Source: Paraflavitalea soli (lineage in GTDB: Bacteria; Bacteroidota; Bacteroidia; Chitinophagales; Chitinophagaceae). From it: a DNA stretch of 64,000 nucleotides. A program made the position numbers and the translations under genes. Numbering within the stretch: the first letter of the stretch is position 1; every line of letters begins with the position of its first letter. Under the pieces are notes generated by a model. It was not told the origin of the DNA. It did no database searches and worked only from the letters and a program-made list of their open reading frames with translations. The stretch lies in NCBI RefSeq assembly GCF_003555545.1, contig NZ_CP032157.1, forward strand, positions 8,064,546 through 8,128,545, written 5' to 3'. This document shows, in pieces, positions 6,003 to 48,140 of this stretch.

Positions 6003-6476
6003 ATGTATACAGGTCTGCTTCATTTGCACAATCTCCTTCGCTGGGTAATCCTTATTTTATTGTTGGTGGCATTGTTCCGTCACCTTACCGGTATGAATAA
6101 AAAGACATTGGTAAGTGCCGGTGATAAAAAGGTAGACCTGTTCCTGATGATTGCTGCGCACACCACTTTCGTGATTGGTTTGTACCAGTGGATCGCTGGT
6201 CCCTGGGGATTGAAACTGATCCAGAGTGTGGGTATGGGAGAAGTGATGAAGAACAGTGCTTATCGTTTTTGGGCTGTGGAGCATATTACCGGTATGCTGA
6301 TCGCCATTGTGCTGATCACCATTGGCCGTGGTAAAGTAAAAAGGGCTGTTGATTATACAGCCCACAAAAAGGCCTTCTGGTTCTTTTTATTCGCCCTCAT
6401 CATTATCCTGGTTTCTGTGCCCTGGCCTTTCCGCGAAGCCATAGCAAGACCCTGGTTTCCCGGTATGCCCGTGTAA
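6003..6476 (+). CDS. Small four-helix integral membrane protein
   Basis: 157 residues beginning MYTGLLHLHNLLRWV. Four hydrophobic helices are visible (about residues 12-28, 45-63, 88-108 and 121-140) with the ends HLHNLLRW, AAHTTFVIGLYQW and WAVEHITGMLIAIVLITIG, so several His residues lie in or near membrane segments. Similar short Bacteroidota proteins are sometimes labelled cytochrome b-like, but I cannot show haem binding. I chose the ATG at 6003 over an in-frame TTG at 5994. A perfect -7 box TAGCTTTG is at 5958-5965. It is monocistronic, convergent with the next gene. Function unassigned. Confidence 0.8.
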   Translation: MYTGLLHLHNLLRWVILILLLVALFRHLTGMNKKTLVSAGDKKVDLFLMIAAHTTFVIGLYQWIAGPWGLKLIQSVGMGEVMKNSAYRFWAVEHITGMLIAIVLITIGRGKVKRAVDYTAHKKAFWFFLFALIIILVSVPWPFREAIARPWFPGMPV

Positions 6477-6481
6477 TAAAA

Positions 6482-6640
6482 AGGCTGTTAGCCATTAATA
6501 AAGAGCTGTTAGCTATTAGGTATTAGCTGTTAGCAAATTGCTGACAACAACACCTAATAGCTATTTTTTTACAGCTAATAGCTAACCGCCAATGCCCAAA
6601 GGCTAATACCTAAAAGCTAAAGGCCAATAGCTATTTCTCA
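6482..6640. repeat. Intergenic TTAGCTATTAG word repeat forming hairpins
   Basis: Between convergent genes. The words TTAGC, TATTAG and GCTAATA recur in both orientations. Perfect arms GTTAGCTATTAG (6508-6519) and its complement (6575-6586), plus AGCTATTAGGT (6511-6521) and its complement (6552-6562), allow a long nested stem. A related copy is at 9306-9395. Probably a 3'-end hairpin acting on both strands. Confidence 0.65.
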
Positions 6641-8592: not shown

Positions 8593-9305
8593 GTACCATT
8601 ACCTGCCTGATAGTGGATGACGAGCCCAATGCCGTGCAATTGCTGGAAGATTATATCCGCAAAGTGCCTTTCCTGCAATTGAAGGCCAGGTGCTACGATG
8701 CTTTTGAAGTGTTGGAATTCCTCAAGTCCGATAAGGTGCAGCTGATCTTTATGGATATCAATATGCCTCAGTTGTCGGGCATGGACCTGGCCGCTCTACT
8801 GCCCAAAGACCAGCACATCATCTTTAGCACTGCCTATGCCAATTATGCTTTAGAGGGATATGAATACAATGCCGTGGATTACCTGCTGAAGCCCGTTACT
8901 TTCAAACGTTTTATGCAGGCTGTTACCAAGGCGCAATCCTTGTTTACCCAACCCCGGCAGGAAGCAGTCATCAGAGAAGCACCTGCTGCTCCGGAATATA
9001 TCTTTGTGAAATCAGGCAAGCAGCTCATCAAGGTGGAATATGACAAGGTGTTGTACCTCGAAGCCCTCAAAGAATACGTAAATATTGTAACCAGCGATAA
9101 CAAGATGATGGTCTACAAGCGCATGAAAGAACTGGAAGAACAATTGCCGGCTAATTTCATCCGTATCCACAATTCCTATATTGTCAATATCGACCACATT
9201 CAGCATATTGCCGATAACCAGGTGGTCATCGGTAAAATGAAATTGCCTGTCAGCGCCTCTTACCGCGACGCATTCTTACAACTGGTAAATAAACGGCTAC
9301 TGTAA
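8589..9305 (+). CDS. LytTR-family response regulator (pair 1)
   Basis: 238 residues starting with GTG inside the stop of the kinase gene (GTGA overlap), indicating translational coupling. Receiver domain at residues 1-120 with acidic pocket DDE (10-12), phospho-accepting Asp 56 in IFMDINMP and the conserved Lys in DYLLKPV. A LytTR DNA-binding domain follows (about 138-238): FVKSGKQLIKVEYDKVLYLE, YKRMKELEEQLP, FIRIHNSYIVN. LytTR regulators bind imperfect direct repeats; the target genes here are unknown. Very similar to the second regulator at 12160, so the pairs are duplicates. Confidence 0.95.
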   Translation: MSTITCLIVDDEPNAVQLLEDYIRKVPFLQLKARCYDAFEVLEFLKSDKVQLIFMDINMPQLSGMDLAALLPKDQHIIFSTAYANYALEGYEYNAVDYLLKPVTFKRFMQAVTKAQSLFTQPRQEAVIREAPAAPEYIFVKSGKQLIKVEYDKVLYLEALKEYVNIVTSDNKMMVYKRMKELEEQLPANFIRIHNSYIVNIDHIQHIADNQVVIGKMKLPVSASYRDAFLQLVNKRLL

Positions 9306-9395
9306 GAGAAGCTGCTAGCTTTTAGGTATTAGCAGTTAGCCAAACCCAATCGCGAAAGGCTAAAACCTAACTCCTAAAAGCTAACAGCTATTCCT
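9306..9395. repeat. Intergenic TAGCTTTTAGG word repeat with hairpin
   Basis: Starts just after the LytTR stop and ends at the convergent neighbour. TAGCTTTTAGG (9316-9326) pairs perfectly with CCTAAAAGCTA (9373-9383), with additional TTAGC/GCTAA words between. Same family as 6482-6640. Confidence 0.65.
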
Positions 9396-9402
9396 TCATG
9401 GC

Positions 9403-20506: not shown

Positions 20507-21919
20507 ATGAGAATTGTATGCTTATGGCTGCTGCTTTTTACCACTACGGTAAAAGCGCAGACAGACTCCACATTTTATGACATAGTAAAGGACAGCATAA
20601 TAACAAAGTTTAACCGGGGCGACTTCAAAGGAATTTATGCCATGGCCGATACCGGATTCAAAGCCGCCTTCAGGGAGGAGCAGATCGTTGGTATACTAAA
20701 CAGTGCCGGCACATTGGGTAAGATATTATCCAGTGAGCTGATCAGCGAAGAAAAAGAGCAACGATCCTATCGCCTTATCTTTGCAAAGAAATCATTGCAG
20801 CTTTCACTGGGAGTAGTGTCTCCGGTTTCCTATGTTAGTTTCGGCTTGTCCTTTTATAAATTGCCCATTGTCCGGACACGACAGCACTTTTTAGCCGACA
20901 ATCCACTGAAAACACAGTTGGATAGTGTAGTCCAAAAGGCCGTCACCGTTTATATGAGCAATAAAAATGTGGCAGGGCTCTCCGTGGGAATAGTGCGTAA
21001 CGGACAGCTATACATGTACAATTATGGGGAGATGAAAAAGGGAGAAGGCCGGCTGCCGGGAGTCAATACCATCTTTGAGATCGGCTCTGTTACCAAAACA
21101 TTTACCGGCATTCTTTTAGCCAATGCCGTACTCGAAGGCAAGGTGAAACTGGACGATGATATCCGCAAATACCTGGACGGCAACTATCCCAATCTACAAT
21201 ACAATGGCCAGCCCGTGCAGCTGGTACACCTTAGCAACCATACATCAGGGTTTCCCTCCATGCCCAAACTGAATAACGGAGAGGACCCGTTCAGCCCTTC
21301 AGTACAGGTGACACCGGCAATGATGGCAGAAATTTTACACCGCGTTACACTGGACACCGTTCCGGGCACCCGTAGATCCTATTCCAATTTTGCAGTGGGA
21401 CTCCTGGGGCATATACTGGAAAAGGTATATAAAACGAACTATGAGCAACTGGTGAAAAAGTATATCCTCGATCTTTACCATATGCAGCATACCAAAATAA
21501 GTTTATCGCCCGACGATTACAAAGATTTTGCTACGGGCTATGACATGGAAGGAAGGTCCACGGCGTATTGGATAAATCGCCTGGCAACACCGGCAGGAGG
21601 TATCCGCTCCACCACACATGATATGCTGCTGTATATCCGGCAACAGCTGGATCCCCGCAATAAAGCAGCCCAATTGTCTCACCAGCTTACCTTTGGTGAT
21701 ACCACCAGGGGCACCGGCTTAAATTGGGGCATCGCTACTACCTCTTCGGGAAAGCACCGGCAATGGTCGCACGACGGCGGCACCGACGGCTTTACCTCCC
21801 TCTGCATCATTTACCCGGAACTGAAAGCGGGAATTATGCTGCTTACCAATACGGGTGATCATTTTGATGATTCATTTAATGAGATCGCCCGGGCTGTCTA
21901 CAGAAGCTGGTTGCGTTAA
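20507..21919 (+). CDS. Secreted beta-lactamase-related serine hydrolase
   Basis: 470 residues with signal peptide (to about residue 18, VKAQ). Residues 20-110 form an alpha+beta domain resembling the DUF3887-type module (FNRGDFKGIYAMADTGFKAAF). Residues 130-470 are a class C beta-lactamase/penicillin-binding-protein-like domain: catalytic SVTK (Ser 194, Lys 197), YSN (Tyr 292) and HDGGTDGF in place of the KTG triad. Such enzymes are esterases, D-amino-acid peptidases or peptide hydrolases; a true beta-lactamase role is unlikely. Periplasmic. Monocistronic with its own strong promoter. Confidence 0.9.
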   Translation: MRIVCLWLLLFTTTVKAQTDSTFYDIVKDSIITKFNRGDFKGIYAMADTGFKAAFREEQIVGILNSAGTLGKILSSELISEEKEQRSYRLIFAKKSLQLSLGVVSPVSYVSFGLSFYKLPIVRTRQHFLADNPLKTQLDSVVQKAVTVYMSNKNVAGLSVGIVRNGQLYMYNYGEMKKGEGRLPGVNTIFEIGSVTKTFTGILLANAVLEGKVKLDDDIRKYLDGNYPNLQYNGQPVQLVHLSNHTSGFPSMPKLNNGEDPFSPSVQVTPAMMAEILHRVTLDTVPGTRRSYSNFAVGLLGHILEKVYKTNYEQLVKKYILDLYHMQHTKISLSPDDYKDFATGYDMEGRSTAYWINRLATPAGGIRSTTHDMLLYIRQQLDPRNKAAQLSHQLTFGDTTRGTGLNWGIATTSSGKHRQWSHDGGTDGFTSLCIIYPELKAGIMLLTNTGDHFDDSFNEIARAVYRSWLR

Positions 21920-21968
21920 ATCCACTTACCTCGCCCGAAAGTTGATTCACCTATCATTGTATAACTTC

Positions 21969-22046
21969 TTTAGATAAGGCTATTTTCTGTATAGCCAGTT
22001 TAGATAACTCAGAATACCTGTATAGTTATTTTAGTAAGGCACACCT
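21969..22046. repeat. Degenerate tandem repeat of about 30 bp, three copies
   Basis: TTTAGATAAGGC at 21969, TTTAGATAAC at 21999 and TTTAGTAAGGC at 22029 begin successive units; CTGTATAG recurs at 21987 and 22018. AT-rich, immediately left of the 11-bp array. Confidence 0.55.
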
Positions 22047-22051
22047 GATGG

Positions 22052-22214
22052 TTCCCTGGTGTTTGCCTGATCATTTCCTGGTATTTCCCTGGTACATCCC
22101 TGATCAACCCGTGGTCAAGTCCTGGTCAGGTCCTGGTCAAGCCCTGGGTAAGTCCTGGATAAGCCCTGCCTGAGACTTGGCAAAAGCCTGATCAGGTCCT
22201 GATCAAAGACTGGT
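22052..22214. repeat. 11-bp tandem array, about 15 units, consensus CCTGRTCA-NNN
   Basis: The core C-T-G-(G/A) starts at 22056, 22067, 22078, 22089, 22100, 22111 (G for C), 22122, 22133, 22144, 22155, 22166, 22177 (T for C), 22188, 22199 and 22210: an unbroken 11-bp step with no insertion or deletion although the units have diverged. The best-kept unit is AGTCCTGGTCA. 11 bp is close to one helical turn, so all cores face the same side of the DNA. Not coding in any consistent frame. Confidence 0.8.
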
Positions 22215-22512
22215 AGGAGAGAATGCTTCCCGATGCGCGCAAGCGGATAGCGATCAGGCTTCATTAAAGCCTCATTACGCCCCGATCTTAAGTCCGCCGA
22301 AAAACCCCTTGCATCGACCCTTGCTGCTCTTAAAACGCCTCCTGGTTGCCTTAAACGCGAAAGCGCCATTCCCTTCGTCTTGTCTTGGTTCTTTTAAGCT
22401 CCATGCGGAAGGTGAGCCTGGTAAAGCTGCCCGACCGTGGCCTGGATACCTTCTCCGTATTGCCTACGCCCCTTAGTACACTGGCCCCTTTTCATTGAGC
22501 GGTCAGGCAATC

Positions 22513-22556
22513 CGTAGGCAAGGCGTAGACCAGGCGTAGGCCATGCGCAGGCCAAT
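22513..22556. repeat. Second 11-bp tandem array (CGTAGGCCAGG), four units
   Basis: CGTAGGCAAGG, CGTAGACCAGG, CGTAGGCCATG and CGCAGGCCAAT begin at 22513, 22524, 22535 and 22546. The same 11-bp step as the array at 22052 but a different sequence. GCCTACGCC at 22462-22470 is an inverted match to the third unit. Between the arrays GCTTCATTA (22258) and GCCTCATTA (22269) are also 11 bp apart. Confidence 0.7.
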
Positions 22557-22801
22557 GGGGGCGTGTGAGCCTTGTTTGTCTACTCCTCAGGTAGTCCGCA
22601 TGGCTGTTGCCGGGCAGGCGCTAAAAGTTTGCACAACAAATGTCTCTTGTATGCTTTGCGCCAGGCATCCGGGGCGTCCTGGCGATGACCGCGCTTATGT
22701 TATCAAAGAAGGTGACACCATAGTGGGGAGCTGCCCTGATCTGTTAAAAAGATTGACTACCAATGCTTTGAATCCACCCTGAAATTTTTATGGTAAAATG
22801 C

Positions 22802-22833
22802 TTGGAAGTATTAGCCAGGTGGTTATACCTTTG
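22802..22833 (+). promoter_or_regulatory. Putative promoter of the tetR-ABC exporter operon
   Basis: TTG (22802-22804), 21-bp spacer, perfect -7 box TACCTTTG (22826-22833). Transcription would begin near 22840, about 17 nt before the tetR ATG, inside the repeated GGTTwAAC operator. Confidence 0.5.
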
Positions 22834-22866
22834 GTTTAACTATTTGGTTAAACTATATGGTTGACG
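22821..22866 (+). promoter_or_regulatory. Probable TetR operator: GGTTwAAC repeats at 13-bp spacing
   Basis: GGTTATAC (22821), GGTTTAAC (22833), GGTTAAAC (22846) and GGTTGACG (22859) follow one another at 12, 13 and 13 bp. The middle two also make the perfect palindrome GTTTAAC-N6-GTTAAAC (22834-22853). The array covers the -7 box, the expected transcript start and the first codons of tetR, the standard place for TetR autorepression. Two further copies (GGTTAAAT 23502, GGTTAAAC 23515, again 13 bp apart) lie at the start of the next gene. Confidence 0.65.
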
Positions 22867-23474
22867 AGGCAAACAAGGATCAAAGTACAGAGCAGAAAAT
22901 ATTGGCAGCTGCCAAAGCGGTATTCATAGAGCAGGGACTGGCAGGCGCCCGGATGCAGGATATTGCCGACAAAGCCGGTATCAACAAGGCGCTGTTGCAC
23001 TATTATTTTCGCAGCAAAGACAAGTTGTTTGAAATGATCTTCCAGGAAGCCGCCATGAAATTCCTGCCCAAGGTGAGTGTCCTGTTTGAAGGCGATATGC
23101 CGCTGTTTGATAAAATACGCTTGTTCGTCGACAACTATATCACCATGATGATCGACAATCCTTTTATTCCCCTCTTCGTGCTCAATGAAGTGCATAAATC
23201 ACCCGAAGATTTCATCACTAAAATATGGGGAGGCAGGTTGCCACCGGTCGTTGAGTTTGCAGCCCATGTACAAAGAGAGATCGATGCAGGCCATATCCGG
23301 CCCGTGAAGCCCTTCCACCTGATGATCAATATGATCTCCATGTGTGTATTCCCTTTTATCGGACGCCCGGTAATAAAAGGCGTATTTAAAATAGACAATG
23401 ACCAGTTCATGCAGGTGATGGAAGAGCGGAAAACACTGGTCGCCGACTTTGTGATTGATTCTATAAGACTATAA
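22857..23474 (+). CDS. TetR/AcrR-family transcriptional regulator (exporter operon)
   Basis: 205 residues. N-terminal helix-turn-helix with AAKAVFIEQGLAGARMQDIADKAGINKALLHYYF, the textbook TetR DNA-binding domain (residues 12-60), followed by an all-helical ligand-binding part. It heads an operon with TolC, HlyD, two ATPases and two permeases, an order like E. coli cecR-ybhGFSR, so it is probably the local repressor released by an exported compound. ATG follows the operator palindrome by 3 bp. Ligand unknown. Confidence 0.93.
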   Translation: MVDEANKDQSTEQKILAAAKAVFIEQGLAGARMQDIADKAGINKALLHYYFRSKDKLFEMIFQEAAMKFLPKVSVLFEGDMPLFDKIRLFVDNYITMMIDNPFIPLFVLNEVHKSPEDFITKIWGGRLPPVVEFAAHVQREIDAGHIRPVKPFHLMINMISMCVFPFIGRPVIKGVFKIDNDQFMQVMEERKTLVADFVIDSIRL

Positions 23475-23482
23475 ATTTTTTT

Positions 23483-24784
23483 ATGTACACGTTGACCAAA
23501 TGGTTAAATAACATGGTTAAACATTGGAAATCGGCAGCCCTGCTGCTATGGATCACTCCTGCACTGGCGCAGGATAGCTCCACGCTCACACTGGAGCAGG
23601 CCTATGACCTGTCGCGGGAAAATTATCCCCTTATTAAGCAGAAAGGACTTGTGAGGCAAACGGCTGACCTTACCATCGATAACCTGAATAAGAACTATTT
23701 GCCGCAGGTTACCGTATCCGGACAAGCCACTTATCAATCGGCGGTAACGAGTGTACCCATCAGGGTGGCAGGATTGGATATACCTACCCTGTCGAAAGAT
23801 CAGTACCGTATACAGGCCGAAGCTACCCAGCTATTGTATGATGGCGGCGCCGTATCCGCGCAGAAGAACTTGCAACAGGTGAATGCACTGGTAGAAGACC
23901 AGCGGGCGGAAGTAGACCTGTACAAAGTGAAAGAACGCATCAACCAGTTTTACCTCGGCATCCTGTTACTGGATGAACAATTGAAGCAAACCGAACTGGT
24001 GAAGAAAGATATTCAGCTGGGCATCAAAAGAGTCACAGCACAGGTAGACAATGGTACTGCGTTTCGTTCCAATCAACTGGTATTGGAAGCAGAACTGCTG
24101 AAGGCGGAACAACGTACCATTGAGTTGAAAGCTACCCGCAAAGGATGGCTGGATGTATTGTCGCTCTTCCTCAATCAATCACTGCCAGAGAATACAGCCC
24201 TCCGTATGCCGGTTGTAAGAACCTATATAATGGCGCCAGGCATCAATCGCCCGGAGTTGAAATTATTCACTTACCAGGATAGCTTATTCAAATCACAGAA
24301 TAGCCTGATCAGCGCAAAGAACCGTCCCCGCACCAGCTTGTTTGTGCAGGGTGGTTATGCCCGGCCGGGACTGGACATGCTGAAGAATGATTTTGCCTGG
24401 TATTATGTGGCCGGCGTTCGCCTGAACTGGTCACTGGGCAACTTGTATACAACAAAAAAAGAGCGGCAGTTATTGACCGTGAACCAACGGATGGTGGATG
24501 TGCAGAAAGACCTGTTCCTGCTCAATACCAATACCCAACTAAAGCAACAGCAATCGGAGCTGAACAAGTTAGAGCAGCTGATCGTCTCCGATGAACAGAT
24601 CATTGGCCTGCGTGCCAAAGTAAAAGAGGCCGCTAATGCACAACTGGAAAATGGCGTGATCACCGCCAACGATTTTTTGCGGGAAGTGAATGCGGAAGAC
24701 CAGGCAAGGCTATCGCTCATTGCCCACCGCTTACAATGGCTGCAGGCCCAGATCAATCTTGAAACCATATCAGGCAATCAATAA
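23483..24784 (+). CDS. TolC family outer membrane protein (ABC exporter operon)
   Basis: 433 residues, or 423 from the internal Met at 23513 (MVKHWKSAALLLWITPALAQ), which by itself makes the better signal peptide. Mature protein opens with TLTLEQAYDLSRENYPLIKQK, the usual TolC/OEP start, and has the two helical hairpins typical of the family. It would provide the outer-membrane channel for the ABC exporter encoded downstream. The region between the two possible starts carries a second pair of GGTTAAAy operator-like repeats, arguing for the later start. 8 bp after tetR. Confidence 0.92.
   Translation: MYTLTKWLNNMVKHWKSAALLLWITPALAQDSSTLTLEQAYDLSRENYPLIKQKGLVRQTADLTIDNLNKNYLPQVTVSGQATYQSAVTSVPIRVAGLDIPTLSKDQYRIQAEATQLLYDGGAVSAQKNLQQVNALVEDQRAEVDLYKVKERINQFYLGILLLDEQLKQTELVKKDIQLGIKRVTAQVDNGTAFRSNQLVLEAELLKAEQRTIELKATRKGWLDVLSLFLNQSLPENTALRMPVVRTYIMAPGINRPELKLFTYQDSLFKSQNSLISAKNRPRTSLFVQGGYARPGLDMLKNDFAWYYVAGVRLNWSLGNLYTTKKERQLLTVNQRMVDVQKDLFLLNTNTQLKQQQSELNKLEQLIVSDEQIIGLRAKVKEAANAQLENGVITANDFLREVNAEDQARLSLIAHRLQWLQAQINLETISGNQ
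23502..23522 (+). promoter_or_regulatory. Second GGTTAAAy operator-like pair
   Basis: GGTTAAAT (23502-23509) and GGTTAAAC (23515-23522), 13 bp apart, repeat the spacing and half-site of the tetR operator. They overlap the start region of the tolC gene. May be a secondary TetR site or codon coincidence. Confidence 0.4.
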
Positions 24785-47963: not shown

Positions 47964-47996
47964 AAAGCCCCGCATATGATTTGCGGGGCTTTTTTT
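47964..47996 (+). terminator. Intrinsic terminator of the ribosomal protein operon
   Basis: AAAGCCCCGCA (47964-47974) pairs with TGCGGGGCTTT (47982-47992), then TTTT. 26 bp after rplQ. Confidence 0.92.
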
Positions 47997-48012
47997 GGGT
48001 ACCTGAGGCTGT

Positions 48013-48140
48013 CTGGAAGGGTGGGTCGCCCTTGAAGGGCGGCTCACCCTTCCAGAGCGGTTCACCCTTGAAGGGTGGCTCACCCGGTCTAAAGAAGCCT
48101 GTCGAATGTCAGGCTGAGCCTGTCGAAGCCGCCTAAAGAC
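48013..48140. repeat. Composite GGGTGGGTCGCCC and GTCAGGCTGAGCCTGTCGAAGCC repeats
   Basis: CTGGAAGGGTG (48013-48023) pairs with CACCCTTCCAG (48045-48055) around CGCCCTTGAAGGGCG; a second CACCC...GGGTG stem follows, then GTCGAATGTCAGGCTGAGCC and TGTCGAAGCC. A 31-bp stretch of the first hairpin (48019-48049) is identical to 61281-61311. Sits between rplQ and carA. Confidence 0.75.

Follow-up and report, generated by a model that had tools for sequence, protein, structure and literature searches.

A fixed-step 11-bp repeat array in Paraflavitalea soli, possibly an orphaned copy of a dispersed noncoding element that resembles iterons

The window analyzed here is a stretch of 64,000 nucleotides of the Paraflavitalea soli genome (G000:C1:8064546-8128545), an assembly consisting of a single contig of 8.44 Mb. 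An array of 11-bp direct repeats lies in the 937-bp gap (21920-22856) between a gene encoding a beta-lactamase-fold serine hydrolase domain protein and a gene encoding a TetR-type regulator (Table 1), and the description of this region as gene-free in the original prediction was accurate. The seven neighboring proteins that were scanned show DUF2625, cupin/HgmA_N, beta-lactamase fold, TetR, OEP, HlyD and ABC domains. The TetR protein has matches of 72-84% identity in all four sister genomes, and a relative in Paraflavitalea sp. CAU 1676 (Chitinophagaceae) is 74% identical. The PF00144 hydrolase is without a match at E ≤ 1e-80 in three of the four sister genomes and has a match of 43% identity in the fourth. 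Downstream of the array, a second repeat module includes an inverted left arm (about 22452-22470) and a weaker, different 11-bp array of the GTAGGCCATGC type (about 22504-22560).

Table 1. Features of the array locus (positions within the window).
Feature	Position	Strand	Description
Beta-lactamase-fold serine hydrolase domain protein gene (PF00144)	20507..21919	+	flanking gene
IS3-like right-end remnant, ~97 bp	21947..22043	+	three TGTATA-(5 nt)-TTTAG sites, 30 and 31 bp apart
11-bp array	22045..22209	+	15 in-phase units, consensus about CTGGTCAAGCC, no indel
Second repeat module	22263..22561	+	several partial copies in the P. soli genome
TetR-type regulator gene	22857..23474	+	flanking gene, followed by OEP, HlyD and ABC-transporter genes

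The left border of the array is at 22044/22045, a few bases before the start given previously, and a sixteenth, weaker unit extends it to 22220. The earlier claim of about 15 units at an exact 11-bp step was confirmed, as the units run without an indel and the lag-11 identity of 22045-22210 is 0.67. When the suggested autocorrelation and randomization checks were run on this segment, 10,000 mononucleotide shuffles gave values of at most 0.40, and across lags 5 to 30 the identity in 2,000 first-order Markov resamples never exceeded 0.43. In a lag scan, the best 165-bp stretch has a lag-11 identity of 0.68, the strongest periodicity of the window, and lags 22, 33, 44 and 55 likewise stand out. 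The CTG(G/A) core is also in phase as described: 13 of the 14 such sites in 22045-22210 share one phase modulo 11 (the exception is at 22170), and the in-phase units without this core carry GTGG (22111), CTGC (22166) or TTGG (22177). The statement that the units have drifted strongly applies to part of each unit, as columns 2 and 3 (T and G) are invariant across all 15 units and the other columns keep 6 to 14 of the 15 bases. This column conservation is uneven with p = 5e-5 in a test that assumes independence of the units, an assumption that tandem copies violate.

A coding repeat was ruled out for the array because its step is not divisible by 3 and it overlaps no ORF of at least 100 aa; an 84-aa ORF on the minus strand (22115-22369) covers part of it. 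A bending code is unsupported: G+C phasing inside the units of 17 arrays was no better than in column permutations (Fisher p = 0.46), and purine phasing in the same number of arrays gave p = 0.058. As the helical repeat of B-DNA is 10.5 bp, an exact 11-bp step loses phase over 15 units, which counts against a bending code as well.

It is very improbable that the arrays are transcribed and act as a structured RNA or terminator by folding into long hairpins. Inverted arms are present in some arrays (those of L040, L228 and L231, the GTAGGCC type and the loci having the core described below) and a few arrays fold strongly, such as that of L247 (z = -7.8), but a folding z below -2 on the better strand was obtained for 9/22 period-11 arrays versus 11/40 random noncoding segments, and 18 core regions had a mean z of -1.2. 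The window array itself has a folding z of -1.61 on the plus strand and -0.02 on the minus strand, and the window contains no Rfam match (at the gathering score) and no tRNA match. An RNA hairpin was therefore rejected as a general property of the period-11 arrays, whose folding rate is scarcely above that of random noncoding DNA. With the bending and RNA tests negative, a protein-binding array or a functionless repeat remain as explanations.

The array belongs to a class. The chromosome was sampled as 58 stretches of 20 kb plus the window (1,224,000 bases, of which 179,372 are noncoding), and the L216 and L219 stretches, which had been placed on known matches, were excluded from the array count. 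Noncoding arrays with z > 6 in this sample include 18 with a period of 11 bp, although two of these come from the window, which had been selected because of its array. There are 38 such arrays of period 7, 12 of period 8, one of period 12 and none of periods 9, 10 or 13. A third-order Markov null, applied to an 864,000-base part of the sample, gave 0.2 period-11 arrays per replicate. The window array has the highest z (14.7) among the period-11 arrays of the scan. Members of the class have up to about 17 units, occur in mixed gene contexts and differ in unit sequence, with CTGGTCAAGCC, AAGGTCTCGAT, GTAGGCCATGC, CTTCAGCATAC and AAGCCGTAGAT types represented.

Arrays with other periods were also noted. 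Intergenic 7-bp (AGCTAAT type) and 8-bp (CTTCCGGA type) arrays, frequently with inverted arms, lie at 6472-6640, 9305-9400 and 2731-2830 of the window, and a genome of another genus (G013) has 12 period-7 and 7 period-8 arrays in a sample of 100 kb. An 18-bp tandem repeat of the GAAGGGCGGCTCACCCTT type is found at 47986-48085 of the window, with similar 18-bp arrays in L034 and L039.

When the window array was compared with its paralogs unit by unit, the best register was barely ahead of the next (0.72 versus 0.69 and 0.69 versus 0.68). A shared order of unit types is weakly suggested among the CTG arrays, with the exception of the L022/L023 pair, which aligns unambiguously over its first 14 units. 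In this pair, columns 1-5 keep 66/70 bases and columns 6-11 keep 65/84 (p = 0.003); the difference between CTG and the remaining columns is not significant (38/42 versus 93/112, p = 0.32). Uneven columns of this kind lend modest support to the view that part of each unit may be under selection.

The proposed search for further arrays and for a neighboring conserved gene identified a genus-wide class that is enriched 5' of one gene family. Four CTGR motifs at an 11-bp step have 10, 7, 1, 18 and 3 matches in P. soli (G000) and its sister genomes G001, G002, G003 and G004, respectively. Outside the genus, 4 of 34 genomes have matches (1, 1, 1 and 3); overlapping matches inside one array are tallied separately. 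A reversed control (four RGTC motifs at an 11-bp step), counted in the same way, has 20, 19, 15, 10 and 10 matches in G000-G004 and is absent from all 34 genomes outside the genus; its matches correspond mostly to another array family, the AAGGTCTCGAT type. Both 11-bp-step patterns are thus present in all five genomes of the genus and nearly absent from the other 34. At a 10-bp step, the CTGR pattern is absent from G000; of 39 genomes, three (including one sister species) have a single match. No period-11 array with z > 6 was detected in 100 kb each of G008, G010, G013 and G022 or in 20 kb of G018, and random 100-kb samples of the sister species contained one in G001 and none in G003 or G004. 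The AAGGTCTCGAT-type arrays have five units in 13 of the 14 displayed loci (from five species) and six in the remaining one, with the qualification that the RGTC search pattern demands at least four units and that one undisplayed G001 locus has at least six. As diverged arrays of the same type are present elsewhere in the P. soli genome and in a sister species, a very recent slippage origin, which had been offered as one explanation of the array, fits poorly.

The position of the array, 5' of the TetR gene and 3' of the hydrolase gene, would be compatible with control of a neighbor, the array acting as an operator or enhancer either for the TetR/efflux operon downstream or for the hydrolase gene upstream. 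Such a role is highly improbable on comparison with the sister genomes, in which similarity 5' of TetR reaches only 36-75 bp before the ATG, whereas the window array ends approximately 650 bp before it. The 3.6-kb TetR loci of the four sister genomes hold a single period-11 array (in L093, approximately 1.3 kb upstream of the gene), and none of the four has an array directly before TetR. The mixed gene contexts of the class also argue against this role. Separately, TTTGGTTAAAC-like motifs are repeated before the TetR gene (22830-22862) and between it and the outer-membrane efflux gene (about 23490-23525). These motifs are kept 5' of TetR in the displayed sister loci L091 and L092 and in Paraflavitalea L049, and they are perhaps the TetR operator.

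Insertion sequences are found beside several of the arrays. IS3-like elements have an HTH orfA and an rve orfB, TG..CA ends and a 3-bp target duplication, and the elements described here are provisionally labeled IS3-like from their domain content and ends. In the window, the IS remnant ends in ..GGCACA immediately before the first array unit. A copy of this IS end in L053 sits directly 3' of HTH_28 and rve (transposase) ORFs, and at least five of nine long matches of the end are followed by an 11-bp array (those of the window, L053, L002, L003 and L008). A related arrangement is seen at L216, where a CTG-type array is interrupted by a 1,441-bp element that has HTH_28 and rve ORFs, TGTC..GACA ends and GAC as its 3-bp duplication. 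The two halves of this array are in 11-bp phase once the element and one GAC are removed, and in L293/L216 the array halves are still in register on either side of the IS with its 3-bp target duplication.

The L216-type IS is present in eight copies in the P. soli genome. When the flanks of each copy were joined, a period-11 array with z > 6 was found in the resulting 300 bp for six of the eight, and the remaining two gave z = 5.0 and z = 4.0; a matching 3-bp duplication is likewise present at six of the eight. Because only 7,182 of the 1,224,000 sampled bases are within 150 bp of an array with z > 6, this adjacency is far above chance, although three of the six array-linked copies share flanking repeats and the six therefore represent four of six distinct contexts. 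Five of the six are located at arrays of one family, the CTTCAGCATAC type, so that the IS may seek that repeat rather than the 11-bp step.

Genes encoded beside arrays were used to define a protein family. Profile A1 was built from 13 such proteins (seeds that were chosen for this position) and has 26, 19, 17, 27 and 54 members in G000, G001, G002, G003 and G004, respectively. This total of 143, and the matches in 29 of 79 Chitinophagaceae genomes (one per genus), were obtained with two doubtful rows still in the profile, L023 (which fails leave-one-out) and L231 (which is marginal). No significant match to the family was found in Pfam, PHROGs, NCBIfam or the PDB. The 800 bp 5' of the gene were read for the 30 best of the 143 members, of which 29 were usable and one had too little upstream sequence. 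A period-11 array is present there with z > 6 in 16/29 loci and with z > 4.5 in 24/29; with the seed loci excluded, the values are 10/20 and 16/20. Among control genes of the chromosome sample, 16/734 have an upstream array with z > 6 and 26/734 with z > 4.5 (14/224 and 23/224 for control genes with a long upstream gap), a comparison in which the family loci are not independent because related paralogs share arrays by descent. Conversely, only 3 of the 18 sampled arrays adjoin a family gene, namely those of L039, L040 and the marginal L231. Of 27 family loci read outside the genus, 6 have an array with z > 6, a set with no control of its own.

Some family loci have a more elaborate organization. 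The core GCGCTTTAAC is found in 12 of 30 genus loci, 130 to about 300 bp 5' of the start codon, and 11-bp units flank it on both sides; by inspection, the two sides are reverse complements in several of these loci. In 12 paralogous locus pairs, homology begins in the upstream array region. In seven pairs it stops no more than 10 bp from the stop codon of one or both members (exactly at the stop codon in L235/L247 and L247/L257); in four pairs it stops well within the gene, and in one it continues beyond the gene. The marginal member at L231 (7061-7384; leave-one-out E-value: 0.004) is a small protein beginning MAISENVLLKKLSGHLGK that is encoded 3' of an 11-bp array with inverted arms.

The window array itself is less closely connected with this family. 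The L023 gene, which is located behind a CTG-type array in G003, was dropped as a family member (leave-one-out E-value: 15), and the link between the window's CTG-type array and the family is therefore weak. No family gene was found when the whole window was searched (best E-value: 3.1). With respect to mobile elements, the L054 protein has no match in plasmids, phages or viral contigs, and neither the L202 nor the L273 protein has a match in viral contigs. The L273 protein has one plasmid match, in Marivirga sp. BKB1-2, and the 6.7 kb of this plasmid that were read contain no period-11 array with z > 5.

Our preferred interpretation, which we hold tentatively, is that this Chitinophagaceae genus carries a dispersed, iteron-like noncoding element and that the window array is an orphaned copy of it. 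Elements of this kind are 11-bp direct-repeat arrays in which the step is fixed and the unit sequence varies with the element type, and some arrays form the upstream part of a cassette consisting of the array, in some types a GTGCGCTTTAAC core, an inverted array and the family gene. By analogy with ParR on parC of plasmid R1 and PhoB on the two 11-bp halves of the pho box, each unit would serve as a binding site and the bound protein would assemble in head-to-tail fashion over the array; the family protein encoded 3' of the array is a candidate for this binder. The original prediction of an iteron-like function or a cooperative DNA-binding protein thus stays the best reading, with modest support from the uneven columns, and the binding itself is predicted from sequence. 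IS3-like elements would favor some arrays as insertion targets; in the window, an IS would have inserted at the left edge of the array, and only its right end would be left. The window array is probably an orphan because there is no family gene in the window, an IS end lies at the array border and the four sister genomes lack an array adjacent to TetR. Given the absent cassette gene and the IS right end at the array edge, this copy is probably without a present local role for the TetR/efflux genes.

It is also possible, though we consider it doubtful, that the arrays are functionless dispersed repeats, generated by a genus-specific mutational or recombination process that duplicates arbitrary sequence with an 11-bp ruler, followed by spread and point-mutation decay. 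Such a process would account for units that differ among arrays while the step stays at 11 bp, for the degeneracy of the arrays and for the retention of TetR in sister genomes without an array directly in front. It would also account for the many arrays in varied contexts without a family gene (15 of the 18 sampled), an observation that counts against binding. It does not readily explain the uneven column conservation, the enrichment of arrays 5' of one gene family, the inverted arrays that by inspection flank a shared core or the near-constant length of the AAGGTCTCGAT-type arrays (to the extent permitted by a pattern requiring at least four units), all of which are points in favor of binding.

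The proposed binding arrays can be compared with two characterized systems. ParR/parC sites consist of tandem direct repeats (11 bp in plasmid R1 and 10-20 bp elsewhere), and ParR of R1 requires at least two 11-bp repeats (PMC9426499). The window array is similar to R1 parC in that it consists of direct repeats with an 11-bp step, and binding would by analogy be cooperative; unlike R1 parC, the arrays described here are numerous on one chromosome and have dissimilar units, with 15 units in the window array. The requirement of R1 ParR for such repeats is also what could suggest that an integrated element left behind a replication origin or partition site of plasmid type. We consider this extremely improbable given the number of arrays per chromosome, the unlike units and the seven scanned neighbor proteins, among which there is no Rep, ParM or ParA domain, no ParM/ParR pair and, in contrast to an iteron origin with an adjacent rep gene, no replication-initiator domain. 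The site of PhoB is a pair of 11-bp direct repeats whose 7-bp core is CTGTCAT (PMC2648988). The arrays resemble this PhoB/OmpR-type pho box in having head-to-tail 11-bp units with more and less conserved parts, but differ from it in having up to about 17 units rather than two and in their mixed contexts; the window unit likewise starts with CTG, and its core (CTGGTCA/CTGATCA) is a different one. The arrays match the ParR/parC and PhoB sites in step and not in gene context or unit number, and we assign them to neither.

A broader proposal, which we regard as rather unlikely, is that the arrays and genes represent an undescribed class of mobile or duplicating Chitinophagaceae cassettes, each comprising an array and a gene whose product recognizes its own array. 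In such cassettes the spacing would be conserved and the sequence would provide a variable specificity, so that the protein would diversify together with its array; the window array and other orphans would be debris, and IS3-like elements would use some members of the class as landing sites. In open-literature searches for 11-bp tandem repeats in Bacteroidetes/Bacteroidota and for Chitinophaga or Paraflavitalea repeats, none of the titles listed concerned this class. If the family product does bind its own array, each genome would contain many naturally diversified protein-site pairs and would permit a direct test of how a spacing rule persists as recognition changes. A second, independent handle on how the arrays look to a protein comes from the IS adjacency.

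This adjacency also invites comparison with REP elements, which are palindromes of conserved sequence. The arrays are similar to REPs and BIMEs with their REP-targeting insertion sequences (IS1397, ISKpn1 and ISPsy8) in that they are numerous intergenic elements of one lineage with IS3-type copies in or beside them. They differ in that the step is fixed, the unit sequence is variable and palindromy is not general, as indicated by the folding results above. To our knowledge, a fixed 11-bp step with free unit sequence, shared throughout a genus and enriched 5' of a single gene family, is not a pattern of the REP, BIME, MITE or iteron families. IS3-family elements are known to target REP elements (PMC1525189). 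A separate dispersed intergenic repeat, with a AAAAATCGACG...CGTCGATTTTT hairpin, was observed at L184, L035, L098 and L036.
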